From: Acetobacter ghanensis
Lineage (GTDB): Bacteria > Pseudomonadota > Alphaproteobacteria > Acetobacterales > Acetobacteraceae
Length of the DNA stretch: 64,000 bases
Direction of reading: 5' to 3'
Assembly (NCBI RefSeq): GCF_001499675.1
Contig: NZ_LN609303.1
Span: 97,208 to 161,207, forward strand
Part shown: positions 19,197-63,089 of the stretch, piece by piece
Position numbering within the stretch: position 1 is the first letter of the stretch
Layout of the letters: each line of letters opens with the position of its first letter
Notes under the pieces: generated by a model
Seen by the model: the letters and a program-made list of their open reading frames with translations, nothing else
The model's database searches: none
What the model was told of the DNA's origin: nothing
Program-made: the position numbers and the translations under genes

Positions 19197-19787
19197 CTTC
19201 TGACTGTCGGAATGGTGGGTCACTTTTCCCTCAGGTCGCCTCTGGCACAGAGCCTGCTCGAGGGCATCCAGCACGAAGTCGGTATGGGCCGTTGAGGAGA
19301 CACGCCAGCCCACAATAACCCGTGCGAATACATCAATGATGAAGGCCACATAAACAAAGCCCTGCCAGGTGGAAACGTAAGTAAAATCCGAAACCCAGAG
19401 TTTGTTGGGGGCTGGTGCATGAAACTGTCGCTGCACCAGATCCTGTGGACAGGGCCGTGCCGGATCGGGCCGTGTGGTTCTGACCCCCTTGCCACGAATG
19501 ACACCTTTCAGTCCCATCCGGCGCATCAGCCGCTCTACCGTACAGCGGGCGACATCCAGACCTTCACGTCTGAGCTGATGCCAGACCTTGCGCACTCCAT
19601 AGACGCAGAAATTATTGTTCCAGACCCTGCGGATTTCATGACATAGCTCGTTGTCTTTCTGGCTGCGCACACAGGGATTTTTCTGTCTCGCCCGATAAGC
19701 ATAATAGGCAGATGGTGCAATCGACAGAACCCTGCAGATTGACCCGACACCATATGTCTGCCGATGCTCCTCAATGAAGCGTGTCAT
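19197..19787 (-). pseudogene. IS3 OrfB transposase, N-terminal part
   Basis: Starts MTRFIEEHRQTYGVGSIC, with HTH_21 region (YGVRKVWHQLRREG) and the first catalytic Asp in KLWVSDFTYVSTWQGF. It runs to THHSD, where IS110 entered. The start overlaps the orfA stop (ATGA), so here the two frames overlap rather than needing an obvious slippery fusion. Confidence 0.9.
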
Positions 19788-20107
19788 GGTCTGAAGATGC
19801 GGTCGAGCTCCGCCTGGGCAAAATATGCTGACGCCTTGCGCAGGATTTCGTTAGCCTGCCGCAATTCGCGGTTCTCTCGCTCCAGTTGCCTGATCTTCTC
19901 CCGATCAGGAAGATCACTTACCGCAGATGCATTGGCCCGCTCATGCACACGGGTCCATTTTGACAGCGTGTCAGGATGAATATCCAGCTTTGGCGCGATC
20001 ATCATCACTGCGGACCAGCGTGATGGATGGTTCTTCTCTTCCTCCAGAACCATGCAGGCTGCACGTTCACGAAATTCAGGCGGAAAACGCTTCGATTTGT
20101 TGCTCAT
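19784..20107 (-). CDS. IS3-family OrfA
   Basis: 107 residues: MSNKSKRFPPEFRERA, an HTH_Tnp_1 domain (LDIHPDTLSKWTRVHE) and a leucine-zipper-like C-terminus (IRQLERENRELRQANEILRKASAYFAQAE). It binds the element ends and partners OrfB. Intact, but its OrfB is broken by IS110, so this copy cannot transpose by itself. Confidence 0.9.
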   Translation of the reverse strand: MSNKSKRFPPEFRERAACMVLEEEKNHPSRWSAVMMIAPKLDIHPDTLSKWTRVHERANASAVSDLPDREKIRQLERENRELRQANEILRKASAYFAQAELDRIFRP

Positions 20108-37813: not shown

Positions 37814-40108
37814 TCAAACATCGGTCTGTGTAATGGGCCGCACCTGAGCGGCCGTTGTCGTATCCATTGCAGGAACTGTACCACCAGAACCACCACTGCC
37901 ACCACTTTTTTTTGCCTCGTCTTTCAATCCTTCGAGATATTGTGTGGCAACCTGACGACCAGTATCTGCTCCCTGCTCGACCGGCCGGCTGGAGGATTTT
38001 TCGAATTCTTCCGCATCCACACGGCTGGCCGCACCAAATCCGACCATGGAGGCCATGTGATGGGGCAATGTGGTGATCAGGCGGAAGGACAATGTCGCAG
38101 TCGTCATCTCCATGGCGGAATACATGATGATCATGGCGATAAGGCCGACCCAGTTATCGGTGAGATAGCCATGATCCAGCGTAAAGGTCGAGGCGACCAG
38201 AAAGCTTTTCATCAGCAGCCAGGAAAACGCAGAAAATATTGTATAGCTGAACACCATACCGATCACCATCATCGCCGGCCGGAAGAGAATGGTGAAAAGA
38301 ATCTCGTAACCCCGCACCCCTTTGCCGTGTATGCCATCTCCCGCGAACGTCATATGGGCAAGGAACCATAACGGCGCATAAGCGACGGCCTCGACTACCA
38401 GCAGAAACCATCCCGTAACGCCGGCAATCCAGTACAGATAGGGCATCATCGGCAGGACATAGGCCAATGTGACCCCTGCCGAGAGCAGAAAAAGGCAGGC
38501 CGTAAAAATTACCGGGAGCAGGCGGGTAATCGTTCCGCTCAAAAAGGTCGCCGCAGCAGCAGTAGCCGTGGCGCCCCATTGTCCCGTGAAGAAGGACGCA
38601 ACGCCAGCACTAATATCGAGAGACAGACTGCCTGCGGCCACAGACAACGCAATGGCACTCAGGGCCAGATGGATGAGCAGATGCCCCATGCCAATCATGG
38701 CTCCAAGGGGATCAACCCAATCCGTGCCAGAGCTGCCCATCACCAGATGGTTCATGATGAGTTCAAGCGTGCCTGGTCCGAAGTTCAGGTAAGTCAGCAC
38801 CTTTGTCCAGATCGCAGTGCTATCTGAAGAGACACGGGCATTGGCATATAGCCGAGGTGATGTGCTGTTTGGAGCTGGTTCGTCGGCTGTCTGAAGTGTC
38901 GCATCCATCTTGCCGAGATAACTGGATACACTCTGGAAGAACGGCATCAGGTCTTGGCCTAGATACGGGCCTGTGCCAGCCCATGATGGCGCCACGACAG
39001 CGGGCGTGATCGAGGACACTGAAATGACTTCTGCGTTCAGACGAGAAATTTCGAGATAATAGGCCCCAAGTCCCGTCCATCCGAGGGAACGGAGTTCTGC
39101 GGTCGCTGAATTGTCGCTCGCTGTTGACCCGGCGGAATTTCTAACAGCCGAGACCACGCTGGAGGCGATGCCTGTCAACTGCCCGTTGAGGTAGTTCGAC
39201 TGCGCGACGAAGATCGTGTCGAGCGTTCCCAGTGTTGCGACATCACGTGTTTTCCAGAGTGAGGTTATGGTGTTCTGCAAACTGGAACGGATATTTGTCG
39301 CCAGCGTTTTTAAGGACTGGATTTGCTGGCTGCTGACACTGCTGAAATCAATGCTCTGGTATTCGGTCGTGGTCGCAGTTTTTACAGGCGTGCTGATGGA
39401 AACCAACCCGCAGGTCGGCATGGCCGTGCCGTTACCATTGGCCATATTGTAAGAGAGGGACACCGTGCCATTGCCATCGTCAGTGATAGTGGGCTCAGGA
39501 ACAAGAACGGGGTTGTTGGAAGCCGTGTTGATCAGGGCCCGACAGATCTCGCTTTCCATGACACCAAGCACGACCTGACGCGAGCCCGGGATCATGGGCG
39601 TTGCCAGAGGGAGTGCCTGTGGTCCCACGGCGTTCATCACCACTTTTTCTTCGATTGTGGCCATACCGATAGAAGCCTTGGCAAAATTCACAATCAGGTT
39701 TTGACCGAGCGAAAATCCGTTGAGGACTGGCAGCATCATAATGACGCTGCCGACCGCACGCACTGGCACCCAGCCGCCAAAACTGGCGGAGAACACCTTC
39801 CCGGTTTCAGCCGTTTTCTGAATCTGCGCCAGGATGGAATACATGATCCAGAAGCACGCCATAATTGAGACAAAGGTGGTAAACCATTGCAGCAGGGTGC
39901 CGGTGGCCGTATCCGCGGTGCCGTCCATCGGGAACAGGCTATCGAGAACTCGCGAAGACCAGTCATCACCAGCGACAAGGTCGGCCCAGCTTACATTCTC
40001 GAACCCGTTCGTGGCGTGGGCTGGCCCTGCGTGAAGCAGAACCAACCCTCCAAGTAAGGCTGCCACCAGTGGCGGCGAAAGCCGCGCCATTTTGGACACA
40101 CCGCGCAT
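37814..40108 (-). CDS. dotA: DotA/TraY-family protein of an I-type (IVB) conjugation system
   Basis: About 764 residues. Signal peptide (PPLVAALLGGLVLLHAGPAHA), then widely spaced hydrophobic segments (TFVSIMACFWIMYSIL; LLIHLALSAIALSVAAGSL; LLPVIFTACLFLLSAG; YLYWIAGVTGWFLLVVEAV; RPAMMVIGMVFSYTIFS) and the FGGWVPVRAVGSVIMMLPVLNG region characteristic of DotA/TraY. It ends with a Gly/Ser/Thr-rich tail. An inner-membrane or secreted channel component essential for IVB transfer. ATG at 40108 or 40090; the latter gives the cleaner signal peptide. Confidence 0.85.
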   Translation of the reverse strand: MRGVSKMARLSPPLVAALLGGLVLLHAGPAHATNGFENVSWADLVAGDDWSSRVLDSLFPMDGTADTATGTLLQWFTTFVSIMACFWIMYSILAQIQKTAETGKVFSASFGGWVPVRAVGSVIMMLPVLNGFSLGQNLIVNFAKASIGMATIEEKVVMNAVGPQALPLATPMIPGSRQVVLGVMESEICRALINTASNNPVLVPEPTITDDGNGTVSLSYNMANGNGTAMPTCGLVSISTPVKTATTTEYQSIDFSSVSSQQIQSLKTLATNIRSSLQNTITSLWKTRDVATLGTLDTIFVAQSNYLNGQLTGIASSVVSAVRNSAGSTASDNSATAELRSLGWTGLGAYYLEISRLNAEVISVSSITPAVVAPSWAGTGPYLGQDLMPFFQSVSSYLGKMDATLQTADEPAPNSTSPRLYANARVSSDSTAIWTKVLTYLNFGPGTLELIMNHLVMGSSGTDWVDPLGAMIGMGHLLIHLALSAIALSVAAGSLSLDISAGVASFFTGQWGATATAAAATFLSGTITRLLPVIFTACLFLLSAGVTLAYVLPMMPYLYWIAGVTGWFLLVVEAVAYAPLWFLAHMTFAGDGIHGKGVRGYEILFTILFRPAMMVIGMVFSYTIFSAFSWLLMKSFLVASTFTLDHGYLTDNWVGLIAMIIMYSAMEMTTATLSFRLITTLPHHMASMVGFGAASRVDAEEFEKSSSRPVEQGADTGRQVATQYLEGLKDEAKKSGGSGGSGGTVPAMDTTTAAQVRPITQTDV

Positions 40109-44918: not shown

Positions 44919-45698
44919 TCAAGAAGAGGATCTGTCCTTTCTGTTTTTTGACGCGGCGGTGCTGGCGCGGAACCTGTAGCTGTCATTTCCTGTCTCGAGG
45001 ATATGACAGTGATGGGTCAGCCGATCGAGGAGCGCCGTTGTCATCTTCGGGTCACCAAAGACGTCTCCCCATTCACTGAAGCTCAGATTGGTTGTGATGA
45101 TGACACTGGTGCGCTCGTAGAGGCGGCTGAGCAGATGGAACAGCAGGGCGCCCCCAGACGCACTGAAGGGGAGATAACCGAGTTCATCAAGGATCACGAG
45201 ATCCAGGCGGAGCAGCCTGTCGGCAATCTGCCCGGCCCGGTTGGCGGTCTTTTCCTGTTCGAGCGCATTGACCAGGTCGACCGTTGACCAGAAGCGCGCC
45301 TTCTTGCGGTGATGGGTGATCGCCTGGATGGCCAGCGCGGTCGCCAGGTGGGTTTTCCCGGTTCCCGGACCGCCGATCAGCACGACATTTTCAGCACGCT
45401 CGATGAAGTCCCCGCTATGGAGCTGGCGGATCATGGGCTCGTTGACCTGCGTATCGGCAAAGGAGAACCCGGACAGGTCCTTGTAGGCGGGGAACCGGGC
45501 GGTCTTTGTCTGGTAGGCGATGGAGCGCACTTCGCGTTCGGCCAGTTCCGCCTTCAGGAGTTGTGAGAGGATGGGGATGGCCGCCTCGAAGGCAGGTGCC
45601 CCCTGCTCGATGAGGTCGGCCGTGGCCTGGGACATGCCATACATCCGCAATCCACGGAGCATGACCACAAGTGAAGCAGCCGCAGGATCATGACGCAT
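44919..45698 (-). CDS. istB: IS21 helper ATPase IstB
   Basis: 259 residues from the ATG at 45698 ([12 protein letters not shown]). AAA+ DnaC-like: Walker [12 protein letters not shown], Walker [13 protein letters not shown], sensor TTNLSFSEW. It assembles on target DNA and activates IstA. Overlaps the istA stop by about 10 bases. Confidence 0.94.
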
Positions 45699-47211
45699 GG
45701 CGGCTGTCCCTTCGCAGGATGTCATACCGCCCTGTATCGGCGCACGGTTCGTGTTCGAGCACCAGGGCCTGTGGGGCATCGAGCCGGGGAACCACGGTTC
45801 TCTTGGCATCGATCAGGCGATGAAGCGTATTGAGAACATGGGTCTTGGTCGCCACGCCGTCTTCAAGTGCCAGTTCAACCGCGCAGAGGACAGCCTGCTC
45901 ATCATGCTGCAGCACAAGGGCCAGGATTTCAGCCATTTCCCGGTCGCCTCCAGGGCGCCTGAGCAGTTGATCCTGCAGGGTCCGGAAGGCGGCTGGCAAT
46001 TCGGTAAACGGCGCGCCATTGCGTAGGGCGCCCGGTTTGCGCTGGATGACCGCCAGATAATGCCGCCAGTCATACACCGTGCGGCCTGGCACACCATGCG
46101 AACGCGTGATGATCCGGTCATGCACGCACAGAACTTGCCCTTCGGCGATAATGCGCAGCTTGTCAGGATAAACCCGCAGGCTGACCGGACGATTGGCAAA
46201 GGAGGCCGGCACGCTGTAGCGGTTGCCTTCGAACTGGATCAGGCAGGTTGGTGAGACGCGCTTGGTCTGTTCGACAAACCCGTCAAAGGGACGCCCCGGC
46301 ACCATGAGGTGGGGACGTTCGCTTGCATGGACCTCGGAGACGCTACACGGCAATCCAGCATGCCGCAGCCGTTCCCAACGGTCCAGGCAGCGGGCTTCCA
46401 GCCAGGCATTCAGCGCCCCCAGATCGGGAAAGACGGGCAAATCCTGCCAGATCTGGCGCCGGGCATCCTGCACGGTCTTCTCGATCTGCCCTTTCTCCCA
46501 TCCGGCTGCCGGATTGCAGAAGGTCGGCTCGAACAGGTAATGGCTGGCCAGGGCCATGAAGCGCAGGTTGACCTGACGCGCCTTGCCCGACCCAATCCGG
46601 TCCACGGCCGTCTTCATGTTATCAAAAATACCCCGCCGCGGCACGCCACCGAGCACGCGGAAGGCCTCGGTAAGCGCATCAAAAAGCATCTCGTGGGTCT
46701 GTAGGGGATAGGCCCTGAGTATGAAGGCCCGGCTGAAGGACAGTTTGGTGTGGGCAACCTGCAGCTTGACGCGACGGTCGGCAATGACCGCCCAGTCCTC
46801 GCCCCAGTCGAACTGGAACGCTTCCCCGGGCTGGAAGCACAGGGGCACAAAAACACCCCGACCCGTTGTCTGGCGTGCCTGGTGCTGTTCGTGTTTCCAC
46901 TGCCGGATGAAAGCGGCCACCCGTCCGTAGGATCCATCATAACCCAGTGCCACAAGGTCTTCATGCAGTCGTCGCGCCGTGCGCCGATTCTTGCGGGGGC
47001 GAGCGGCTTCCAGGACCAGCCATCCCCTCAGCCTGTCAGCAAACGGGTCCAGTCGGCTGGGACGTTCGGGGACCTGGAACCGCGGTTCAATACTCTGTGC
47101 CCGGAGATATTTCCGGATCGTATTGCGTGACAGTCCCGTCCGGCGTTCGATCTCGCGGATCGGAAGATGATCCCGGCAGTGCCACCGGCGGATCACACTC
47201 AGAAGCTCCAT
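45688..47211 (-). CDS. istA: IS21 transposase IstA
   Basis: 507 residues from the ATG at 47211 ([11 protein letters not shown]). The frame is open to 47271, but the extra N-terminus is not IstA-like. Helix-turn-helix ([21 protein letters not shown]), then rve-type DDE core: [12 protein letters not shown] (Asp), [12 protein letters not shown] (Asp) and the later Glu near [15 protein letters not shown]. Complete. Confidence 0.94.
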
Positions 47212-47308
47212 GTCAATCACTCCAAAACCCCCCCAGCAGATGATGCCGGGGAGTGTGAAGGCATGGGTCAAATCTCGATGAAAATTTCCGCCCTACCCGG
47301 GTCAGTTC

Positions 47309-50424: not shown

Positions 50425-50739
50425 TTATCCAGCCCAGCCATGTAACCCTTTCCACGCCTCGTTCAACAGGCGCCCGGCAACAGCCCGATCTGACGCGGAG
50501 CCTTCCAGTGCCGGGTGTCGCAGAACAGCATAGTAGATCTCGCGCATGTCCTCTATGGTCGCATCATCGCGCATCCATCCGCAGGCGCGTAACTGATTGA
50601 TGACCTGCCGGTTCAACTCGGCATGCCTAGCCCGGAACGCCTCATAAGCCTCCTGAGTGTCCAGCTGCTCCGCCTCCCGTTCGACATGAATAAGGGGCAA
50701 CGCCCGCGCTACGATTTCTTCCACCAGCGGGTTACTCAT
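50425..50739 (-). CDS. Small helical protein downstream of the relaxase
   Basis: 104 residues, helical and charged (VEREAEQLDTQEAYEAFRARHAELNRQVINQL; DDATIEDMREIYYAVLRHPAL), no signal peptide. Its ATG overlaps the relaxase stop, so it is co-translated. A relaxosome or coupling accessory role is inferred from position. Family not recognised. Confidence 0.65.
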   Translation of the reverse strand: MSNPLVEEIVARALPLIHVEREAEQLDTQEAYEAFRARHAELNRQVINQLRACGWMRDDATIEDMREIYYAVLRHPALEGSASDRAVAGRLLNEAWKGLHGWAG

Positions 50740-53700
50740 GAATCCACTCCCATATCCGTTGAAGGCCGCACCACACGGCCCTTAGAGCTGTTCGGTGCTG
50801 GCGTTTGTGTCCTGTCCTGAAACATATCTTTTTCAGTACCCCGCGCAGCAAGTCTGTTAGCCCGTTCCGCCGCATCCTGCGCGATCAACGCCTGACGCCT
50901 GAGATTGCGGCCCAGATCGTCCCACCGCTCAGCGGGAACTTTGCGCAACGACACAGATGCAGCCCGGCTCCGTGCGCGTTCCCCGGGCTGCTGCTCAGTT
51001 TCTTCAATCTCTTCCCGTCCCCTCTCACGACGGATCCACTCGATTTGTCCCTGCCTGACCTTCATTTCCTCGCCCGTCAGATCAATTGCGACGGACTTGT
51101 AAGGGTGCTTGCCCATGTCACCCGCTACACGGTTCAGCAGATCCTCATACGTTACCGGGGTCTTATCACCCAGAGGCCTCGAAAACGTCTCAGCCTCCCT
51201 CACAGACGCTTCGCCAACCATTGTCCATGACGCATGGACATGCCGGCTTTCCGCGACATAGGCCGTAAACCCCGTCATCGACGAACTACCCCGTGGCAGC
51301 GCATTAATATGCTCGTCCGATGTCGCCCCCTGTGCCGCATCAATCGTCATCGCATGACCAAAACCGAGGGAAATACGCCCGGTCTCCCGATCGGCTAAGG
51401 AATCCCATGGGACGAACCCCTCAGTGCCCGCGCGGTTCTTGAGAATAAGGCCGTGATCCGTCCATCCCATAACATCAACAAAATCACCATTTGAACCCAG
51501 TTCCAACCACCGCGACCCATAGGCTCGTTGGGCACGACAGCGCACCTTGCTGAAAAGCCGCAACCGGTCACCAACAGCAATCGGGAGATCATAACTCTCG
51601 CCCCGTTGGTCAATCGCGGCCCGAACGATTTCTTCCTTCCCGACCTCTCCGCGTTCACGCAGGCGCTCACGCACTGCCATGCTGAGCGCCATGACGTCCT
51701 CATTCGTGGGAGCGGACATCGTAATCCCGCGCTTACTCCCGGCAGCGCGAAGCATGTCCCGGCGCTTGAGGTAGAACTCCGCAATATGTGCGACAACCTG
51801 CGCGTGATCACCGCCGACCAGGCTGAACGTCCCATCCGCCCGCTTAAGGTCTATCGCCTTGCGGGCGCGCTGCGCATCCTCGGCGTTCTGCTCCTCCTCA
51901 GACTTCGTCATGTCGCGCCCCGTGCCACGAAACAGACCCGCGATCATCCGGCCGCGCTCGGTTTTCTGGCGGATGGTACTCACCAGCTCAAACCGGACAC
52001 CCGCGGGAACCGAACGCATCATCAGCTCCACGCTGTCACCCGCTTCAATAGCCTGCGCCTGCTCACGGTCCGCGATGATCCGCATGGAAAAGCCCACCTC
52101 TTTCTGCAGCCGCAGGAGCTTGAGCATCTGGATTGGGGCGATCTGGCTGCCCTCGTCTATGATGAGAACCGAGTTGGGTGCAATCGCCACCCGGCCCGCC
52201 TCGATCTCACGCAAAAGCGGAGACAGTGCGACCGTGCGCTCCACCCCCGCATCCTTGAGCGCATCCGCCTGTCGCCAGGCCATGGCAGTGCCGATGACCT
52301 GTCGCCCTTCCTCCTTCCAAGCTGTGACCAATGGTGACAGAAGCGCCGTCTTTCCCGCCCCCGCTGCCCCAGTCAGAAAGCCAAGCCGCCCCGAAAACCC
52401 CAAGCCATAAATGGCCGCCAGCTGGGCGCGGCCATGATCCGGCTCACGGTCAAAATCCAGGCCGGACGCCTCAATCGCCTTTTGCAGAGCCTCCCGCGAC
52501 AACGCCCCGTCCGTATCGCGCGCCGCCAGCGCCACCAGCTCAGAGAACTCTTTCTCCACGCTAATCTGGAACTTGGAGGTAACACGCTTACGCCCGTGTA
52601 TCGTTTCCACAACAAGATCCGTCTGCTCCCCTTCCAGCACGATGCCCCGTTGCAAAATCATGTCGCGGACATGGTCCATGTCGCCAGCCTCATGGATGCC
52701 CGCCGCAATCAGGCCGTGCGCCGCGTGCATCCTCAAAACGTCCAGATCGAGAACCGCACTGCTCTTGAAGTCTTCCGCGGCCAGCCGCGCCGCAATCGCG
52801 TAGGCTTCCTCAAACCGTTCAGCATCGGTCTTCGTCGCATACACGGCATCCGTCAGCGAGGTTGTGTGCTTCCAGCCCAGCTCGTCTGCCTGCTCTCGCC
52901 AGATCTCGCGGTCGTTGCTCCCGGTATATTTCTTCGCCCGGTAAGCCAGATTGGCCTGATGCAGAACCTTGAATTTCTGGTCGGCCGACATCGTCTTCCA
53001 GTCACCACCCTGTCGCGCGACAAAGGCCTTCGCCTGCTTTTCGGCCTGCTTGCTCCGTTTAGAGAACGCCTCGCAGACCTCTTTGGGGATGTCGTCAATA
53101 ACGATCGCCCGGCCTCGAGCATCAATGCTGACCTTGATCCCCAGTTCGCGGAGCAGCTGAGCGAGCTGTGCCTGAAAGTAGGCCCCGAAAATATGGGGCA
53201 TCGTTTTCGTGATCCGGGCGGAATCCAGAGAGCCGACGTGTCCGTCCGCCGTGGCCACCATGTTCAACAGGATGTTATGAATATGGGCCTGCGGATCACC
53301 GGGCACTGGAATTTCGACCGAAGCCGTGGGGCCAGACGCACCATCCTGTATCTGCATGGCTGGGCGGGCCGCGTAGTGTCGGAAGGACACCCAACCAACC
53401 TCGCCCTGCTCGTCGATCTGCACGCCGTTCACCATCCGTCGTGCCCAACCCAGCTCCGCCGCTATCAGCCTGAGTGCCCGATCATTCGCCGTATGGATGG
53501 CGTGCCAGATCAGCGCCTGCTCGGCTTTCGTAGACGCAAACTCAGCGGCAAGCGTGACGGACTTGTCGGGCGAAGCCGTAAAATCAAACCCAGAGATCGT
53601 GCGTTTGCGGCCACCCGCTTTCCGGCCCGCCTGTTTGGTCGTCTTGTCACCCTCAATGTCGTGCCATTCCTCGCCAGTATCGGCACGCTTGGCTTCGAAC

Positions 53701-53957
53701 AGGTTGCAGAGTGCTTCGTCCGAGGGCGGAGCCGTTAGATCAATGCCGAGTGCGCGGGCTGCAAGCGGGCCAATGTCAGGCCCCCAGTCGCCACGCCCTT
53801 CCCGGCCAGTATAGTAGTTGTTGAGACGGCCGCCCTTTTCCTGACCGCTGCCCGGCGACGCTTCAGCCCCGGGCACCGCATCCATCTGATGCTCGCGCAA
53901 GTAGGCCATGATAAGCTTCCCCGCCCCATCGGCCGAGAGCTTACGGAACGTCATCAT
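50736..53957 (-). CDS. MobF-family conjugative relaxase/helicase (TrwC/TraI-like)
   Basis: 1073 residues. N-terminal relaxase domain with tandem Tyr48-Tyr49 (LNNYYTGREG), SGFDFTASPDKSVTLAAEFA, and the metal-binding motif HIHN around residues 225-228 (DPQAHIHNILLNM). C-terminal SF1 helicase: Walker A GAAGAGKTALL near 535, Walker B VLIIDEGSQ, and the late motif MTIDAAQGATSDEHI. It nicks oriT, stays linked to the 5' end and unwinds the transferred strand. First residues MMTFRKLSADG fit the TrwC N-terminus. Overlaps both neighbours by four bases. Confidence 0.95.
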   Translation of the reverse strand: MMTFRKLSADGAGKLIMAYLREHQMDAVPGAEASPGSGQEKGGRLNNYYTGREGRGDWGPDIGPLAARALGIDLTAPPSDEALCNLFEAKRADTGEEWHDIEGDKTTKQAGRKAGGRKRTISGFDFTASPDKSVTLAAEFASTKAEQALIWHAIHTANDRALRLIAAELGWARRMVNGVQIDEQGEVGWVSFRHYAARPAMQIQDGASGPTASVEIPVPGDPQAHIHNILLNMVATADGHVGSLDSARITKTMPHIFGAYFQAQLAQLLRELGIKVSIDARGRAIVIDDIPKEVCEAFSKRSKQAEKQAKAFVARQGGDWKTMSADQKFKVLHQANLAYRAKKYTGSNDREIWREQADELGWKHTTSLTDAVYATKTDAERFEEAYAIAARLAAEDFKSSAVLDLDVLRMHAAHGLIAAGIHEAGDMDHVRDMILQRGIVLEGEQTDLVVETIHGRKRVTSKFQISVEKEFSELVALAARDTDGALSREALQKAIEASGLDFDREPDHGRAQLAAIYGLGFSGRLGFLTGAAGAGKTALLSPLVTAWKEEGRQVIGTAMAWRQADALKDAGVERTVALSPLLREIEAGRVAIAPNSVLIIDEGSQIAPIQMLKLLRLQKEVGFSMRIIADREQAQAIEAGDSVELMMRSVPAGVRFELVSTIRQKTERGRMIAGLFRGTGRDMTKSEEEQNAEDAQRARKAIDLKRADGTFSLVGGDHAQVVAHIAEFYLKRRDMLRAAGSKRGITMSAPTNEDVMALSMAVRERLRERGEVGKEEIVRAAIDQRGESYDLPIAVGDRLRLFSKVRCRAQRAYGSRWLELGSNGDFVDVMGWTDHGLILKNRAGTEGFVPWDSLADRETGRISLGFGHAMTIDAAQGATSDEHINALPRGSSSMTGFTAYVAESRHVHASWTMVGEASVREAETFSRPLGDKTPVTYEDLLNRVAGDMGKHPYKSVAIDLTGEEMKVRQGQIEWIRRERGREEIEETEQQPGERARSRAASVSLRKVPAERWDDLGRNLRRQALIAQDAAERANRLAARGTEKDMFQDRTQTPAPNSSKGRVVRPSTDMGVDS

Positions 53958-54295: not shown

Positions 54296-54661
54296 CTACT
54301 GCCCGGGCGGGCAGCCGTCGCGCAATGACGACGACAACACCGCCACAACCTGCATGACCGCTTCCCGATGCTCTGCGGGCAGAGTACCGATCCGCTGGGC
54401 ATCGGCCGCTTCAATCGTCGCGATCTTCGCCGTGCGTACCATGGACGGGGCAGGAAGACCGGCAGCCCTGAAATCGTCGATGTCGATATCGTCCGCCCAC
54501 CGCCTGTGAGAGGACGACGTAACCATCAGCACCCAGAGCAGATCAGGCGCACCGGCAGACTGCACCACCCGCACAACAAGTGCCGGGCGATGCTGCCGGA
54601 CGGGACGATTTGTATAGGGAAACGGAACCTTGAGCAGGTCCCAGACCTCAAAGCCCGGCAT
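54296..54661 (-). CDS. mazF: MazF/PemK-family RNase toxin
   Basis: 121 residues: FEVWDLLKVPFPYTNRPVRQHRPALVVRVV matches the MazF core (entry strand, PFP, then RPALVV), and VRTAKIATIEAADAQRIGTL matches the later conserved part. mRNA-cleaving toxin, overlapping the mazE stop by 14 bases. Provides post-segregational stability next to the mobilisation genes. Confidence 0.82.
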   Translation of the reverse strand: MPGFEVWDLLKVPFPYTNRPVRQHRPALVVRVVQSAGAPDLLWVLMVTSSSHRRWADDIDIDDFRAAGLPAPSMVRTAKIATIEAADAQRIGTLPAEHREAVMQVVAVLSSSLRDGCPPGQ

Positions 54662-55020: not shown

Positions 55021-55052
55021 CGCGCCATAGGCGCGGCAAACGGAACGTTTGC
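55021..55052. promoter_or_regulatory. Adjacent perfect palindromes, candidate oriT or Stb operator
   Basis: CGCGCC-ATA-GGCGCG (55021-55035) is directly followed by GCAAACG-GAA-CGTTTGC (55036-55052). They lie in the gene-free 54867-55208 stretch between the mobF-side genes and the divergent Stb-like operon, the place of oriT in R388-type plasmids. Further right, 55151-55160 reads GTGTTATAGG, loosely like a MobF nick region (T/ATAG), but that match is weak. Confidence 0.45.
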
Positions 55053-55208
55053 ATTTGTATATGGAGAAATCTTTTTGGTGATGTTGAAGTGAAGTAGTCG
55101 TGAGGTAGAGCGCGAGCAAAGCTGATGCTTTATTGATGCGAAAGTGATGGCGTGTTATAGGGTGCGTGCGCGGTCACAGTTGAGCGCAGAGGACAGGGAA
55201 CGAGTAAA

Positions 55209-56943: not shown

Positions 56944-57560
56944 GTCATTCCATTAGCAGAACGCCGGAAGAGGAAGCGCGACAGCGCTTCCTTGCCAGCC
57001 TCCACGATGCGGGCATCGATTTGAATAGCCCGCTGGGGTTCCTGCTAGCCCGCTTGGGCGATGCGACAGCAGAAACCTGCCTGAGCCTGAACACGGCTGC
57101 CGCACGGATAGCAGCCGCTGAAAACACGGCACAGACCAGTCTGGCGCAGCTCCGTGCAGACCTGGCGAACGGACTGGAAGCTGTGCGGGCGATCAGCTCG
57201 GCAGGCGAACACCGAATCAAGATGGAAGAGGAGCGCCTTAAACAGCATCAACAGGTGACTATCGACAAGATGATCGCCTCAATCATGGGAGGACTGAAAA
57301 CGGAGCTGTATGACCGGCTGAAACAGCAGATGCCGCACCATGAGCAGGGGTTCTATCTTGCGACACGCTGGAAGGCGATTTCACGTCTGGCCCTAGCCGG
57401 GGCGCTGCTTTTCTGTGGCGGTCTGCTAGCACATTATGCGGTGGTTTCGCATACGCTGGAACGGGCGCGCTACTGTGAGGGCCATAGCTACGTTACGGAA
57501 AGCGGACAGGCTTGGTGTGATCTCACACCCTTGCGCATCCCGGCCCAGAACCAGAACTAA
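56931..57560 (+). CDS. Tail-anchored coiled-coil membrane protein of the Stb-like operon
   Basis: 209 residues. Long helical N-terminal part (LNTAAARIAAAENTAQTSLAQLRADLANGLEAVRAI; RIKMEEERLKQHQQ), then one membrane helix at ~160-178 (LALAGALLFCGGLLAHYAVV) and a short Cys-containing C-terminal end (YCEGHSYVTESGQAWCDL). Resembles mobilisation accessory proteins of the MobB/StbC position. Its start lies inside the ATPase gene, so the two are coupled. Confidence 0.6.
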   Translation: MDAISHSISRTPEEEARQRFLASLHDAGIDLNSPLGFLLARLGDATAETCLSLNTAAARIAAAENTAQTSLAQLRADLANGLEAVRAISSAGEHRIKMEEERLKQHQQVTIDKMIASIMGGLKTELYDRLKQQMPHHEQGFYLATRWKAISRLALAGALLFCGGLLAHYAVVSHTLERARYCEGHSYVTESGQAWCDLTPLRIPAQNQN

Positions 57561-57575
57561 TCTTTTGTGTCCAAA

Positions 57576-57600
57576 ATGGCGCGCATTAACCGCGCGCCAT
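57576..57600. terminator. Hairpin between convergent Stb-like operon and ssb
   Basis: Perfect 9-bp stem ATGGCGCGC / GCGCGCCAT with a 7-nt loop, 15 bp after the Stb-like operon and 11 bp after the ssb stop. No long T run on either side. Probably a bidirectional terminator or insulator. Confidence 0.55.
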
Positions 57601-57610
57601 GTCCACCAAT

Positions 57611-58066
57611 TCAGAACGGGATTTCGTCTACCGGACCGGCGTTGCCGTAGGCAGGAACCGCCTGCCTGCGTTCGGGGGCTTTGCCGTAATGCCCGCCCGC
57701 TTCGTCGCTGTCCGGGCGGCTGTCCAGCAGAACCAGCTCGCCACGGAAGCGGTCCACAACCACCTCGGTCGTGTAGCGTTCCTGCCCGCTCTGGTCGGTC
57801 CATTTGCGGGTCTGCAACGCGCCTTCAAGGTACACCTTGCGGCCTTTGCGCAGGAAGCGTTCGGCAACGTCGGCCAGCCGGTCGTTAAAAATGACAACAC
57901 GGTGCCATTCGGTCCGCTCGCGCTTTTCGCCCGTTGCGCGGTCGTTCCACGTGTCGCCAGTGGCAAGCGAGAAAGAGACGATCTTCGCGCCACTCTGCCC
58001 ATGACGCACCTCGGGGTCTTTGCCCAGATTACCCACCAGAATGACTTTGTTGACGCTGCCAGACAT
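57611..58066 (-). CDS. ssb: Plasmid single-stranded DNA-binding protein
   Basis: 151 residues: OB fold (SVNKVILVGNLGKDPEVRHGQSGAKIVSFSLAT; TEWHRVVIFNDRLADVAERFLRKGRKVYLEGALQTRKW) and the acidic C-terminal tip DEIPF that recruits repair and replication partners. It coats incoming single strands. Lies 53 bp after the 58120-58509 gene on the same strand and points toward the putative oriT, as leading-region ssb genes do. Confidence 0.95.
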   Translation of the reverse strand: MSGSVNKVILVGNLGKDPEVRHGQSGAKIVSFSLATGDTWNDRATGEKRERTEWHRVVIFNDRLADVAERFLRKGRKVYLEGALQTRKWTDQSGQERYTTEVVVDRFRGELVLLDSRPDSDEAGGHYGKAPERRQAVPAYGNAGPVDEIPF

Positions 58067-58119
58067 TTGCTTGTTCCACTAAAAATATTGATAAGAATAT
58101 CACTGATCTGAAGGACGAT

Positions 58120-58509
58120 TTAAGCGGCTTTCAGCTTGGTCCGTTCCATCTGGACGTACTGTTCCGCCCATTTGTTGACCTGAGCAGCAATCTCTGCAGG
58201 GGTTCCTTCCCGGCCGTCCCAGTCTTTGAGCAGGTCAAACCCATAATGCAGGGCGATATACCGACGGCTTTCCGGGTCTTTGGAGTAATTGGCTCCAAGA
58301 TACCGCGCGCCATTGGGCACCAGATCTCCATCGGGACCCAGCCCGGCAAACAGACGCTCCACACCGCTCGCGGGCCGGTTCGGGTTATGATAGTGCCAGC
58401 CATGATGTTCCACCAAAGCAGCGAGAGTGAGATCTGAGTAATGCGGCCCCTCCTCGCCACCTTGCGATGATGCAGGAAAATTGCTTACAGTGTTCTTTAC
58501 GTCGGACAT
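58120..58509 (-). CDS. Leading-region protein, unknown (MSDVKNTVS start)
   Basis: 129 residues beginning MSDVKNTVSNFPASSQGGEEG. A globular C-terminal part follows, rich in aromatic residues (HHGWHYHNPNRPASGVERLFAG; SKDPESRRYIALHYGFDLLKDWDG). No membrane helix. Its first nine residues and ribosome site are shared with the gene at 61264-61941 because both belong to the repeated leader. Directly upstream of ssb and probably co-expressed with it. Function unknown; an anti-defence or establishment role is inferred from position. Confidence 0.6.
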   Translation of the reverse strand: MSDVKNTVSNFPASSQGGEEGPHYSDLTLAALVEHHGWHYHNPNRPASGVERLFAGLGPDGDLVPNGARYLGANYSKDPESRRYIALHYGFDLLKDWDGREGTPAEIAAQVNKWAEQYVQMERTKLKAA

Positions 58510-58536
58510 GAAAATACCCTTTCTGTTCTGGCTAGT

Positions 58537-58567
58537 CCCGGCCTGGTGCTCGCAACACCGACCGGGG
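58537..58567 (-). promoter_or_regulatory. Leader hairpin before the 58120-58509 gene
   Basis: CCCGG-CCT-GGTG / CACC-GA-CCGGG around loop CTCGCAA, ending 28 bp before the start codon and next to the AAAGGG ribosome site. The stem arms are kept in the other two copies. Confidence 0.55.
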
Positions 58568-59010
58568 CGTTTTGTTGTTCGGGCCCATTCCCTCTCAACA
58601 AGTAAAGATTAGTACATCCCGACAAACAGAACAAGAGAAAAAGCGCGGAAAACTGCGATAAAAGCGTGTTTTTTCGGTCTTTTTCCCACAAATGAATGAA
58701 ACAATATTTCGCGTTAGATTTCTGTGTTTATGGTAACGTCTTTCCAACAAGAACAAATTGTTCCGGTCCATTTCGTTATTGTATTTCTGGTCGTTCTATA
58801 CATCACGTCCCCTTGCGCCCACAACGCAGAACGGTGGGCAAGAGGCATGGCCGCCCCACCCCGCTCCTTGCCTCCTGAGCAAAAAGGCCACCTCCCCGGC
58901 ACAAGGGACTGGCTGCACCAGAGGGCGCGTGTGACGCGCCAGCCGTAGGCCGCCGAAGGCGTCTGGTGAAACCGCCGGCCTTGCGCACTGGTGCAGGCAC
59001 AAGGTCATGA

Positions 59011-59112
59011 CTGTCCACAAATCCATAGGAGGGACCCAAGGGCCGGGCGACATGACCACCAAGAGTCTGGTGGCGCACGGCCCTTGGGAGGTAACTGTGG
59101 AGTTGTGGGCAG
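59011..59112. promoter_or_regulatory. Large hairpin A (Frpo/ssi-like candidate)
   Basis: Outer arms CTGTCCACAA / TTGTGGGCAG, middle arms CCCAAGGGCCG / CGGCCCTTGGG, inner arms CCACCA / TGGTGG with loop AGAGTC, separated by short internal loops. It sits 502 bp upstream of the 58509 start. Confidence 0.75.
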
Positions 59113-59254
59113 CACACGGGGGGACAACGATACGGCTCTTTTTGGGCGGCTGAAACAAAACAGAATGAGAAATGAAGACTCAAACGCATTGCGGCGGGCT
59201 ATGCCCGCCGTCCACATCGCCACCGCAGAAGACTGCATCAAGTAATAACAAGTC

Positions 59255-59668
59255 CTATAGTTCGGCCATAAGTTCAGCGTAAAGTTCTGGGTGTGTCTCT
59301 AAGGTAATTTCTTCCGGCTCCAACGGTTCGTCACCGTAGTCTTCTTCGCACCCAGCGGGACAGAACCCCCAATCAATCCCATGCTCACAGCACCCAAGCT
59401 GGAGTTCCCTTTGCTCCAACTCGCTGATATATTCGCCTGTTTCCTGAGCAAGTTCAACGAGCGCAGGCCCGACATCGTTAGGCAGTTGTGCAGATTTTCT
59501 ATCAATAGCCCGAGAAAACTTCATGCTGTAGCACTCATAAGAGGAACCGCTACCACTCATTGCTTCCTGCCTGATGCCTTCCACAACCCCGGCAAGATCA
59601 CCAAACACAGACGGAGCGAACTTGCCAGGGGAAACGAGCTTTTCTGCAATAGCAATACCGTCGGACAT
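59255..59668 (-). CDS. Leading-region protein, unknown (Cys-rich, acidic)
   Basis: 137 residues: MSDGIAIAEKLVSPGKFAPS, a helical middle (LVELAQETGEYISELEQRELQL), then a cysteine cluster CCEHGIDWGFCPAGCEEDYG suited to zinc binding, and a strongly acidic tail (EPLEPEEITLETHPELYAELMAEL). Strong negative charge with a zinc-like knuckle is compatible with a DNA mimic or inhibitor, but that is speculation. Preceded by repeat copy B. Confidence 0.6.
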   Translation of the reverse strand: MSDGIAIAEKLVSPGKFAPSVFGDLAGVVEGIRQEAMSGSGSSYECYSMKFSRAIDRKSAQLPNDVGPALVELAQETGEYISELEQRELQLGCCEHGIDWGFCPAGCEEDYGDEPLEPEEITLETHPELYAELMAEL

Positions 59669-59695
59669 GAAAATACCCTTTCTGTTCTGGCTAGT

Positions 59696-59726
59696 CCCGG
59701 CCTGGTGCTCGCAACACCGACCGGGG
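59696..59726 (-). promoter_or_regulatory. Leader hairpin before the 59255-59668 gene
   Basis: Same stem and loop as copy A (CCCGG...CCGGG, loop CTCGCAA), 28 bp before the start codon. Confidence 0.55.
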
Positions 59727-60169
59727 CGTTTTGTTGTTCGGGCCCATTCCCTCTCAACAAGTAAAGATTAGTACATCCCGACAAACAGAACAAGAGAAAA
59801 AGCGCGGAAAACTGCGATAAAAGCGTGTTTTTTCAGTCTTTTTTACACAAATAAATGAAACAATATTGCGCGTTATATTTCTGTATTTGTGGCCGCACCT
59901 TTCCAACAAGAAAAAATTGGTAAAGGTGGTTCCGTTATTACATTTCTTGTCCTTCCATACATCACGCCCCCTTGCGCCCACAACGCAGAACGGTGGGCAA
60001 GAGGCATGGCCGCCCCACCTCGCTCCTTGCCTCCTGAGCAAAAAGGCCACCTCCCCGGCACAAGGGACTGGCTGCACCAGAGGGCGCGTGTGACGCGCCA
60101 GCCGTAGGCCGCCGAAGGCGTCTGGTGAAACCGCCGGCCCTGCTCACTGGTGCAGGCACAAGGTCATGA

Positions 60170-60271
60170 CTGTCCACAAATCCATAGGAGGGACCCGAGG
60201 GCCGTGCGACACGACCGCCAAGAGTCTGGTGGCGCACGGCCCTTGGGAGGTCCCTGTGGAGTTGTGGGCAG
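60170..60271. promoter_or_regulatory. Large hairpin B
   Basis: Same layout as hairpin A. Middle arms GGGCCGTGCG / CGCACGGCCC are better paired than in A. The outer CTGTCCACAA / TTGTGGGCAG pair is unchanged. It lies 502 bp upstream of the 59668 start. Confidence 0.75.
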
Positions 60272-60414
60272 CACGCGGGGACGAATAGCGGCAATCCGGT
60301 TTTGTCGAGTAGCCGTTATTTCGGGAGAAGCGGTGATGTCGCCATCCAGGTATTAAGACCATTCGGGCATATGGCAGTGCAAACCCGCCACCATAGGTCC
60401 CGGCGCAAAGTCGT

Positions 60415-60520
60415 GGCTATCCACAAATCCATAGGAGGGACCCGAGGGCCGCGCGACACGACCGCCAAGAGTCTGGTGGCGCGCGGCCCTCGGGAGGTGC
60501 CTGTGGAGTTGTGGATAGCC
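60415..60520. promoter_or_regulatory. Large hairpin D, stand-alone and best paired
   Basis: Outer arms GGCTATCCACAA (60415-60426) / TTGTGGATAGCC (60509-60520), second arms CCATAGG / CCTGTGG with one G-T, middle arms CCCGAGGGCCGCGCG / CGCGCGGCCCTCGGG, all perfect otherwise. The rest of the 0.6 kb repeat is absent. It lies between copy B and the small membrane-protein genes. Confidence 0.75.
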
Positions 60521-60622
60521 CGCCGGGACAACGATACGGCCTTTTTTTACCGCCCGGGAAAAACAGAAACAGGAATGAAGGCTAAAACGCATCACGGCGG
60601 GCTGATGCCCGCCAGTCTCGGT

Positions 60623-60754
60623 TTAGTTGCGCTCCAATGACTCCCGCCATTTGGCAAGGCGTGTTGCAATTGGCCCTAGAGAGAGGCCAATGATTGCAGT
60701 GCCTAGACAGAAAGGCACGGCATAGATCAGAATGGCGCGTGTGGTCTCGTCCAT
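60623..60754 (-). CDS. 43-residue single-pass membrane protein
   Basis: ATG at 60754 with GGAGG 9 bp upstream. MDETTRAILIYAVPFCLGTA, then IIGLSLGPIATRLAKWRESLERN, to a TAA at 60623. One hydrophobic helix and a basic tail. It starts 3 bp after the stop of the next membrane-protein gene, so both are likely a pair. Function unknown. Confidence 0.6.
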   Translation of the reverse strand: MDETTRAILIYAVPFCLGTAIIGLSLGPIATRLAKWRESLERN

Positions 60755-60757
60755 AGT

Positions 60758-61084
60758 TCAGCCCTCCTCTTTTGAAGTATATGGGATATAAAGCAGGAAA
60801 AGCAAAGACAGTGTTTCGATACCAAGAGCAACCACCAGAGCCAAGGCAGCTGTATGCGGCACGAGACGTGCCGCGGGAGAAAACAAGGGCGTAATAAGCC
60901 CGACACCCACGACGGCCAGTGCGATTGTCTGCAAGGCGGATGCAATCGCTTTTAACCTGTCCTCTCGGTGTTTGGGTGTTTGGACTGGCGGCAATAATGC
61001 CCGCAAAATGGGATGTGGCTTTGTATTGTCCAATGGCTCTATTCCGACAATGGGGGAAAAGTTACGGCCTCGCACATGACCCAT
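60758..61084 (-). CDS. Two-helix membrane protein, leading region
   Basis: Up to 108 residues. The hydrophilic N-terminus (start uncertain; the ATG at 61084 overlaps the upstream small ORF) is followed by two membrane helices (LQTIALAVVGVGLITPLFS and AALALVVALGIETLSLLFLLYIPY) and ends TSKEEG. Not recognised. Coupled to the 43-residue gene. Membrane proteins in leading regions can be entry-exclusion or establishment factors; no evidence decides. Confidence 0.55.
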   Translation of the reverse strand: MGHVRGRNFSPIVGIEPLDNTKPHPILRALLPPVQTPKHREDRLKAIASALQTIALAVVGVGLITPLFSPAARLVPHTAALALVVALGIETLSLLFLLYIPYTSKEEG

Positions 61085-61206
61085 TCAGGTGGTCGTATGA
61101 CACACCCACCAGACCATTTTTCAGAGATCAATTCATACACTATCCCGGCGCGGGATACAGCAAACCACACGCCTTCTTCACGCCAAACAGATTTAAAGTC
61201 GTCCAT
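61039..61206 (-). CDS. 55-residue soluble small protein
   Basis: MDDFKSVWREEGVWFAVSRA, GIVYELISEKWSGGCVIRPP, EWVMCEAVTFPPLSE. It reads like a compact folded domain with many aromatic residues. Overlaps the start of the membrane-protein gene by 46 bases. A second in-frame ATG six bases upstream (61212) is possible. Ribosome site is weak. Confidence 0.4.
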   Translation of the reverse strand: MDDFKSVWREEGVWFAVSRAGIVYELISEKWSGGCVIRPPEWVMCEAVTFPPLSE

Positions 61207-61233
61207 TTTCATCTCGGTCGCTGGTGTTGGTGC

Positions 61234-61253
61234 GCCGGGCCTTTTGGCCCGGC
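61234..61253 (-). terminator. GC-rich hairpin after the 61264-61941 gene
   Basis: Perfect GCCGGGCC-TTTT-GGCCCGGC, 10 bp past the stop at 61264. There is no T tract downstream on the minus strand, so it may only weaken transcription into the small genes that follow. Confidence 0.55.
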
Positions 61254-61263
61254 TGGTTGTTGT

Positions 61264-61941
61264 TCAGATACCAAGCGCCTCGTCTAGAGCGGCGGCGGCT
61301 TCCTGTGACACTGTGCGGTTATTCGCACGGGACTGGTAGGGCTGCCATTCTTCGCCCATGACTTCGGCATAAGCCGTGCAGGCTCCGCTGGCGATATGGT
61401 ACAGAGCGTATGCCTTCACTGCATGTTCGGCTGCGGCCCGGCGCAAGCGGCCTGTGTAGTTATCCTGTCCGTCGATGCCCATGCGGTCGTCGTCGCGGTG
61501 TTCGTTCGCCCATTTATCCTTTGCGTCTTTTGCAAGCTGGCGGCGGGTTTCGTAGTAATTCGCCGCACCATGAGCCGAGCGCACAAGCGCATCTACGATA
61601 CGGTCAAGATGTATCTTGATCGCCTTAAAATCATCTTCGCCGTTAAAAGACATGACCAGAACGGGCCGTAACGCGTCATACTGATCTCGAACGGTGCTCA
61701 GGCCGAGGCCGATCATTTCGTCAACGTCTGCAACGTCCAGACCGAAACGTGCGCTGATAAGAGCAATCTGGTCGTCTGAGGGAGCCAGAAGCTCCACATT
61801 AGCCAGAGAAGGAGACCGCTGCGCTTTCATGCGCTGTTCCGTTTCGTGGAACTGGCGGGCGCGGGCGGGAGAGACGGAACCGGCGGCATCGCCCTTGCGG
61901 GGGGAGTTAGCCTTGCTTACAGTGTTCTTTACGTCGGACAT
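61264..61941 (-). CDS. Leading-region protein, unknown (225 residues)
   Basis: Starts MSDVKNTVSKANSPRKGDAA at 61941. After a basic linker comes a helical domain (IALISARFGLDVADVDEMIGLGLSTVRDQYDALRPVLVM; KAIKIHLDRIVDALVRSAHGAANYYETRRQLAKDAKDKWA) and a C-terminal helical part (AAAEHAVKAYALYHIASGACTAYAEVMG). No membrane segment or catalytic motif recognised. Preceded by repeat copy C. The shared leader and start with 58120-58509 suggest common control during plasmid entry. Confidence 0.65.
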   Translation of the reverse strand: MSDVKNTVSKANSPRKGDAAGSVSPARARQFHETEQRMKAQRSPSLANVELLAPSDDQIALISARFGLDVADVDEMIGLGLSTVRDQYDALRPVLVMSFNGEDDFKAIKIHLDRIVDALVRSAHGAANYYETRRQLAKDAKDKWANEHRDDDRMGIDGQDNYTGRLRRAAAEHAVKAYALYHIASGACTAYAEVMGEEWQPYQSRANNRTVSQEAAAALDEALGI

Positions 61942-61969
61942 GAAAATCTCGCTTTCTGTTCTGGCTAGT

Positions 61970-62000
61970 CCCGGTTTGGTGTTGGTAGCACCGACCGGGG
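61970..62000 (-). promoter_or_regulatory. Leader hairpin before the 61264-61941 gene
   Basis: Arms CCCGG...GGTG / CACC...CCGGG are as in copies A and B, but the loop is TTGGTAG instead of CTCGCAA. Conservation of stem with a free loop supports a real structure. Confidence 0.55.
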
Positions 62001-62443
62001 CGTTTTGTTGTTCGGGCCTATTCCCTCTCAACAAGTAAAGATTAGTACATCCTGACAAACAGAGCAAGAAAAAAAGCGCGGAAAACTGCGGGAAAAGCAT
62101 GTTTTTTCGGTCTTTTTTGCACGAATAAACGTAACAATATTTCGCATTAGATTTCTGTGTTTATGGTAACGTCTTTACAACAAGAACAAATTGTTCCGGT
62201 CCATTTCGTTATTGTATTTCTGGTCGTTCTATACATCACGCCCCCTTGCGCCCACAACGCAGAACGGTGGGCAAGAGGCATGGCCGCCCCACCTCGCTCC
62301 TTGCCTCCTGAGCAAAAAGGCCACCTCCCCGGCAAAAGGGACTGGCAGCACCAGAGGGCGCGTGTGACGCGCCAGCCGTAGGCCGCCGAAGGCGTCTGGT
62401 GAAACCGCCAACCTTGCGCACTGGTGCAGGCACAAGGTCATGA

Positions 62444-62545
62444 CTGTCCACAAATCCATAGGAGGGACCCAAGGGCCGGGCGACACGACCACCAAGAGTC
62501 TGGTGGCGCACGGCCCTTGGGAGGTAACTGTGGAGTTGTGGGCAG
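62444..62545. promoter_or_regulatory. Large hairpin C
   Basis: Same arms as hairpin A (CTGTCCACAA / TTGTGGGCAG; CCCAAGGGCCG / CGGCCCTTGGG), 503 bp upstream of the 61941 start. Confidence 0.75.
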
Positions 62546-62666
62546 CACACGGGAGGACACGGTGCTCCATACCCGGACAGAGCCCGACCGACAGGCGTCA
62601 CAACCGGTTGCGTCATACTGCAAAGAGCGAGCGGAACTGCGCTCGCGCAAACAGAAAGCAGAAAAC

Positions 62667-63089
62667 ATGACGCCAACACCCGAAACCATTCCCACGTCTC
62701 AGGAAAACCCTCATCAGCCTGACCGGTCGGCCTGCATGCAGTCCGCTCTTTCTTCTTTGTTCGATATCCTCGGCAACCTGATTGCAGAGGCATTATTTTC
62801 TTTTATAGGACTCCTCTATGTAACCCTGAACGTAGCTTCCATCTTTCTGTTCTTGAATTTCTGCGCCTTATCCATCTTCTTCATGGGCGACTACATTTTC
62901 TGTAATAGCGCGCACGCAGAGCGTTTCGCCACAATCGCCCATATTGTTACATCCAACATTACACCGTTGGGTATTATTTGCTTTATTATTTTCTACTGGA
63001 CTGTGTCAGTTCTTAAAAGAGACCGAGCTTCTTTCGATTCAGTCGTCAGGATGACGGTGAGAAAAACCCGACCCCACACCGCGAACTGA
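62667..63089 (+). CDS. Multi-pass membrane protein, unknown
   Basis: 140 residues from the ATG at 62667 (MTPTPETIPTSQENPHQPD). Three hydrophobic segments: LIAEALFSFIGLLYVTLNVASIFLFL, FCALSIFFMGDYIF and PLGIICFIIFYWTVSVL, and a basic tail. The frame is open further upstream, but without membrane logic. A GCGTCACAAC motif copy is 63 bp upstream. Opposite strand to the leading-region genes, so probably a separate unit. AT-rich. Confidence 0.55.
   Translation: MTPTPETIPTSQENPHQPDRSACMQSALSSLFDILGNLIAEALFSFIGLLYVTLNVASIFLFLNFCALSIFFMGDYIFCNSAHAERFATIAHIVTSNITPLGIICFIIFYWTVSVLKRDRASFDSVVRMTVRKTRPHTAN

Follow-up and report, generated by a model that had tools for sequence, protein, structure and literature searches.

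Conserved, covarying hairpins on the predicted transferred strand of an Acetobacter plasmid leading region: candidate elements for early gene expression

We analysed a window of 64,000 nucleotides (nt) from Acetobacter ghanensis, the last part of the 161,207-base contig NZ_LN609303.1 (C2, 97208-161207, reaching the contig end), and in it a set of hairpins that accompany the leading-region genes of a plasmid. Three leading genes without a Pfam family lie on the - strand and encode proteins of 129 amino acids (aa; 58120-58509), 137 aa (59255-59668) and 225 aa (61264-61941), the last being present in sister plasmids as well, and ssb lies on the same strand (57611-58066). A TrwC-type (MobF) relaxase with a helicase domain is encoded at 50736-53957 (-), and a predicted core of the origin of transfer (oriT) is found on the + strand at 55036-55064, made up of an inverted repeat and ATTTGTATATGG with nic predicted at 55060/55061. 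The four hairpins are on the + strand at 59011-59112, 60170-60271, 60415-60520 and 62444-62545. Three of them form the far ends of direct repeats of about 630 nt that begin at a leading-gene start (unit 1, 58481-59123; unit 2, 59640-60282; unit 3, 61913-62556), and the one at 60415 stands alone, in tandem with the 60170 hairpin. Unit 1 consists of the gene start, a promoter motif, an AT-rich part, a structured part and the hairpin, and its second inverted repeat (58910-58999, +) is present in units 2 and 3 also. The repeats extend into coding regions, as the 129-aa and 225-aa genes start with an identical 35 nt (58481-58515 and 61913-61947).

An earlier note on this DNA had described four hairpins of about 102 nt sharing one architecture of outer arm, internal loop, G/C middle arm and inner stem, and folding with DNA parameters against shuffles confirmed both the architecture and the positions. 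In the order given above, the + strand folded with energies of -37.5, -40.3, -49.1 and -37.5 kcal/mol and z-scores of -7.9, -7.2, -10.0 and -8.3, with 0 of 200 shuffles equally stable in each case. The - strand was weaker in all four (-30.8, -31.5, -44.8 and -30.8 kcal/mol). Searched at the DNA level, the host genome yielded no hairpin place beyond these four at E 0.001. Rfam at gathering score returned a single family for the whole window, the ALIL pseudoknot, and none for the hairpins; at E up to 1 a search of three loci added a single mir-2568 match below threshold, on the hairpin of L054 (26.6 bits against a gathering score of 90). The middle arm reads CCCAAGG/CCTTGGG in the 59011 and 62444 copies, CCCGAGG/CCTTGGG with one G.T pair in the 60170 copy and CCCGAGG/CCTCGGG in the 60415 copy, and a T.G wobble is present in CTGTCCACAA/TTGTGGGCAG. 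The further claim that the arms change together within the window held in part: the change is there but is weak because three of the hairpins are duplicated ends of direct repeats, and some arm sequences had been misassigned, with a G.T pair at 60170.

Covariation was far clearer among homologues. In 27 Acetobacter hairpins, in an alignment fitted to the model, 98.6% of cells pair compared to 96.9 in shuffles, 26 cells changed on both sides compared to 7.1 (0/500 shuffles; none in any of six slid versions), and the covariation score was 0.153 compared to 0.113 (0/500). Two measures were weak in this set, pairs with a double change (5 against 3.0, 21/500) and pair types (17 against 16.7, 304/500). 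Thirty-four diverse hairpins, where part of the core invariance is set by the search pattern, gave 79 double-change cells against 29.2 in shuffles (0/500) and a score of 0.357 against 0.123 (0/500), with pairs (7 against 6.6, 333/500) and types (22 against 19.5, 46/500) again weak. The excess of double changes over shuffles in both sets bears out the argument that pair-preserving change reflects a selected fold. Mispairs indicated which strand folds. Read on the + strand, the 27 hairpins hold 935 Watson-Crick cells, 77 G.T cells at 11 positions, 5 A.C cells at 3 positions and 9 others, from sequences related to one another and with p 0.057 when positions alone are counted (11 against 3); the middle stems of the 34 diverse hairpins hold 371 Watson-Crick, 29 G.T (13 of them from one column), 1 A.C and 39 other cells. 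Since a G.T pair on one strand is an A.C pair on the other, the G.T excess identifies the + strand as the selected fold. Computation thus showed that the hairpin fold is selected and that the + strand is the folding one.

The same strand is predicted to be the strand that enters the recipient (T-strand). An oriT-type inverted repeat followed by ATTTGT(A/G)TATGG is kept in all six plasmids compared (the window and L005-L009), where it sits between the relaxase operon and + genes. The nic region of R388 is reported as GCGCACCGAAAGGTGCGTATTGTCT/ATAGCC (PMC4814116). In the R388 record this sequence is on the + strand at position 16166, the relaxase is on the - strand, the next three genes are + and ssb and ardC are on the - strand. 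Relaxase, nic, ssb and ardC are oriented alike on the plasmid analysed here, and the + strand is therefore predicted to be the T-strand, with the genes from 55.1 kb on entering first as the leading region. As had been supposed, the leading genes and ssb point to the putative oriT, and the predicted + strand oriT places them at the front of transfer rather than at its end. Elsewhere on C2 an ArdC gene (PF08401, E 1.4e-40) and a UvrD-type helicase gene are found, both on the - strand, and if C2 is circular the leading region runs on into them. R388 ArdC is reported to be needed in recipients (PMC7213743).

Model R1 of the hairpin matched 8 of the 49 genomes of the genus. On the seven contigs carrying the oriT motif all 17 hairpins, one of them a partial match (L153:11113-11184), were on the oriT strand, and on five contigs without the motif all 10 were opposite the leading genes; these counts cover contigs with a marker, and L161, with none, stands outside them. 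Computation therefore showed hairpins that are conserved, covarying, on the predicted T-strand and ahead of genes pointing to oriT.

Two sister plasmids, L008 (Gluconobacter) and L009 (Komagataeibacter), share the relaxase, oriT motif, ssb and 225-aa gene in a somewhat different order, and model R1 had no match in either at E 1e-10. Both carry direct repeats of their own (572 nt at 95% in L008, 749 nt at 94% in L009) that are about 67% related to each other and unrelated to the hairpin of the window. These repeats precede the 225-aa gene and also ssb (L008) or a g129/ssb pair (L009), places that match those in the window. Strand asymmetry was measured as the difference in fold energy between strands relative to dinucleotide shuffles, a negative z meaning that the T-strand folds better; the L008 and L009 stretches were picked after a prior scan, and the T-strands of F and ColIb-P9 were set by gene direction and the position of the transfer genes. 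The z values were -6.1 and -5.2 for L008, -3.1, -3.0 and +0.1 for L009, -2.4, -2.1 and -0.6 for L005, -1.1 for L006, -1.7 for L007 and -0.9 to -1.4 for the window, and the controls gave -3.0 and -5.2 (ColIb-P9 ssi) and -1.2 and -0.4 (F Frpo). The T-strand had the better fold in 17 of 18 plasmid stretches, four of these being the F Frpo and ColIb-P9 ssi controls, and in 8 of the 18, none of them from the window, at most two shuffles reached the asymmetry value. L162-L165, in which the R1 search had no match at E 1e-10, were included in the promoter search described below, and the fold counts leave out their repeats.

Closer to the genes lies a sigma70-like promoter motif on the - strand, TTGTTC-N17-TAATCT ahead of the 129-aa gene (58606-58634) and the 137-aa gene (59765-59793) and TTGCTC-N17-TAATCT ahead of the 225-aa gene (62039-62067). 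Of 10 aligned leaders, 9 have the form TTGNNN-N17-TANNNT 95-98 nt ahead of the start codon, the tenth having been cut at its 5' end, and it lies 94-97 nt ahead in all 9 additional leaders, which were selected by a conserved end. This gives 18 of 19, a count that takes in no leader of L164, L157, L158, L159 or L161; anywhere in shuffled leaders the form occurred in 120 of 2000. The large hairpin is about 377 nt farther upstream than the motif. Between the motif and the start codon of unit 1 a small hairpin (58537-58567, -), matched in units 2 and 3, lies in a conserved 5' leader common to Acetobacter, Gluconobacter and Komagataeibacter plasmids, and this leader with its hairpin is possibly a translational control element. 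The idea that the T-strand fold rebuilds the ordinary promoter was rejected as a general rule, as mean pairing was 0.53-0.58 in four of five units and 0.87 in one.

The core of the hairpin also occurs outside leading regions. The pattern ATAGGAGGGAC-N26-56-GAGGTNNCTGTGG gave 61 matches in 60 genome-contig stretches, against about 1 expected by chance by our own arithmetic, and many of these belong to multiple copies of a single element (Sphingobium sp. 15-1, metagenome-assembled genome L_MB362). Contexts were assigned to the 61 matches by tblastn with insertion sequence (IS) proteins from three loci: 34 were beside an IS21-type istB, 3 before an IS21-type istA and 3 before an IS110 transposase (PF02371, PF01548), and the remainder were 6 in Acetobacter and 15 others, 9 of which lay at most 400 nt from the right end of the stretch. 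In all 37 istB and istA matches the folding strand runs into the genes of the element, and in L010 and L011 the hairpin is within the IS boundaries (7917-10484 in L010). The IS21-type hairpins, found here in Alphaproteobacteria, share with the plasmid hairpins TCCATAGG, a 5x5 internal loop AGGGA/AGGTN, CCTGTGGA and the folding strand, giving a core TCCATAGG-AGGGA-CC ... GG-AGGTN-CCTGTGGA with a covarying middle stem, of which a part is fixed by the search pattern. They differ in the outer stem, mostly TAGTCC/GGACCCA in the IS21 type and AAATCC/GGAGTT in the plasmid hairpin, and in place, the IS21-type hairpin being near an IS end whereas the plasmid copies are flanked by leading-region genes and not near an IS21-type end. 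In a Gallionellaceae stretch (L045:1014-2799) the hairpin is upstream of a Rep_trans gene of the rolling-circle type (PF02486, E 6.6e-31) on the folding strand. At E 1e-4 model R2 had matches in 19 of the 385 class genomes and in 21 of the 299 family genomes, some of these matches being weak (E above about 1e-7), and two patterns searched in viral contigs gave 0 matches. Larger relatives occur in two family genomes, L139 (hairpin 1501-1643) and L140 (1501-1642), and the middle stem of the L139 hairpin contains TTATCCACAGG, which by eye resembles a DnaA box. The same Rhodobacteraceae hairpin is found about 426 nt before an IS110 transposase in L038, L053 and L060 and without that neighbour in L087 and L096. 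Some IS110 elements carry structured RNA. The plasmid has an IS21 pair of its own (istA, istB) at 44919-47271, and the host-genome hairpin searches placed no hairpin there.

Single-stranded promoters have been described for F, ColIb-P9 and their sequence relatives (PMC11541004, PMC9849209). The hairpins share with F Frpo and ColIb-P9 ssi a place in the leading region ahead of early genes pointing to oriT, which is a predicted one here, and a stem-loop that folds better on the T-strand than on the complement, although the copies in the window show a weak asymmetry relative to shuffles. In F, too, ssb and other early genes are preceded by long direct repeats (559 nt, 89%). The window differs in having a conserved ordinary promoter motif nearer the gene. 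R388 has the same arrangement of relaxase, nic, three + genes, ssb and ardC, and a fold scan showed structured stretches in its leading region, where no model search for the hairpin was made. That the hairpins are unrelated in sequence to Frpo and ssi, as the earlier note had held, agrees with the search of F 45000-68500 and ColIb-P9 30000-75000 with model R1, which gave 41 low-scoring matches without the core (best E 0.0048 at L097:20253-20315). We therefore describe the hairpin as apparently Frpo/ssi-like in place, polarity and folding and do not class it as a member, as no sequence kinship was found and promoter boxes were unconfirmed. Samuel et al. 2024 used five known Frpo/ssi sequences, and afterwards candidates, as queries against the leading regions of 21,907 elements (PMC11541004), and the main text of that paper has 0 occurrences of Acetobacter or Alphaproteobacteria. 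The 14-letter core occurred in no paper of the library searched, and our literature searches brought up no title on this hairpin element.

The best reading of these data is that the hairpin would be a T-strand-specific initiation element, a primer or a promoter, for early expression of the leading genes. We give about an even chance to the fuller proposal that the hairpins form the structured portion of regulatory modules repeated in the leading region, acting as folds of the entering T-strand with an Frpo/ssi-like function and no sequence kinship; that they help to start early gene expression is probable judging from sequence comparison. In the recipient the folded T-strand would recruit host machinery to begin making RNA or a primer in the direction of oriT. 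Such synthesis might transcribe the leading genes directly, or it might make the stretch double-stranded early and so let the conserved ordinary promoter of each gene fire. We lean slightly to early double-stranding, which the position of the promoter motif nearer the gene, with the large hairpin about 377 nt upstream, suggests as the way the hairpin may act. In the model for F, conversion of single-stranded to double-stranded DNA turns Frpo off and licenses ordinary promoters (PMC9849209). Several observations weigh against an initiation role. The asymmetry of the window's copies is weak (4 to 12 of 60 shuffles reach it), one L009 repeat has none (24 of 40 shuffles), and the fourth L005 copy is the exception whose opposite strand has the better fold (+4.3). 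Paired -35/-10 boxes in the T-strand folds reached, where there were any, a best of 6 to 8 of 12 positions, with shuffled means of the best of 5.8-8.4 from shuffles unfiltered for pairing, a comparison that says little either way. The ordinary promoter motif, kept close to the gene in nearly all leaders, counts against a hairpin that is itself the promoter but in favour of the initiation reading. The oriT and the T-strand are themselves predicted. The core recurs by IS21-type ends, where a T-strand is not expected, and no finding is harder to account for than this connection.

Another explanation starts from the occurrence by IS21, namely that the hairpin belongs to mobile elements, is derived from or shared with IS21-type elements, and is merely retained here with a role unrelated to conjugation, such as shielding from inward transcription. 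The 37 of 61 matches by istB or istA, all with the folding strand running into the element, the three before IS110 transposases and the hairpins inside IS boundaries speak for it, but we consider it unlikely: the hairpin was duplicated together with leading-gene starts, its orientation on the predicted T-strand is constant, other folded repeats take the matching places in sister plasmids, and the Acetobacter outer stems are closer to betaproteobacterial ones than to those of IS21. An RNA structure made as a + sense transcript, either antisense to the leading genes or divergent from them, would suit the G.T over A.C bias and the covariation as well as single-stranded DNA does, and in L045 the folding strand carries the Rep_trans gene downstream of the hairpin. 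The plasmid genes, by contrast, are on the other strand, the hairpins of the window have no Rfam family at gathering score, and promoter-like (1 against 2.5) and terminator-like sites (6 against 7.0) in 57500-62700 were not above shuffles, which makes an RNA quite unlikely.

The candidate single-stranded-DNA promoter of the earlier note survives as to place, repetition, polarity and T-strand fold; the promoter itself stays a candidate. Taken strictly, as a hairpin that is a complete single-stranded promoter with the ordinary promoter serving only later expression, it is one route within the initiation reading, counted in the chance given to that, and on its own it is doubtful. It agrees with the place, repetition and polarity, and Frpo1/2 are reported to be needed for early expression in F, where their deletion abolishes it (PMC9849209). 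The best -35/-10 candidate in the lone hairpin, however, had only 6 of 12 matches, in a test that missed the F controls too (7 and 8 against 7.9 and 8.0 in shuffles unfiltered for pairing). A hairpin with a DnaA box loads the replicative helicase in the ABC-primosome. Such a role would fit, by eye, CTATCCACA at 60415 and TTATCCAC-like stems in L136 and L139, but judged in the same way the 34 diverse hairpins do not conserve the box, and we regard this role as very improbable. The same holds for a function in double-stranded DNA (a protein site or a cruciform) or for repeats maintained by recombination alone; long direct repeats are present as these would have it, but neither predicts compensatory change or a G.T over A.C bias.

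If the initiation reading is correct, plasmids of acetic acid bacteria would solve the problem of early expression with unrelated folds, which are not the same even from one sister plasmid to the next. The bias of mispairs toward G.T over A.C on one strand offers a simple test, from sequence only, for elements whose working form is a folded single strand. More tentatively, the near-invariant internal loop with its two GGAGGKNCC arms might be a single-stranded DNA structure signal for a host factor, common across Proteobacteria to conjugative leading regions, IS21, IS110 and a Rep_trans replicon. Unrelated mobile elements would then use one single-strand start signal, and a core common to plasmids and insertion sequences points to a reader yet to be named.

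Further features lie elsewhere in the window. A PemK/MazF-like toxin gene (54296-54661) adjoins the predicted oriT, and at a comparable position the annotation of L005 and L006 shows a death-on-curing toxin pair. A RepC-like gene is found at 30944-32272, its score of 133 bits being below the curated cut-off of 150, and a DotA/TraY gene at 37814-40108. The ALIL pseudoknot (RF01497, E 5.2e-26) is on the - strand at 19713-19829.

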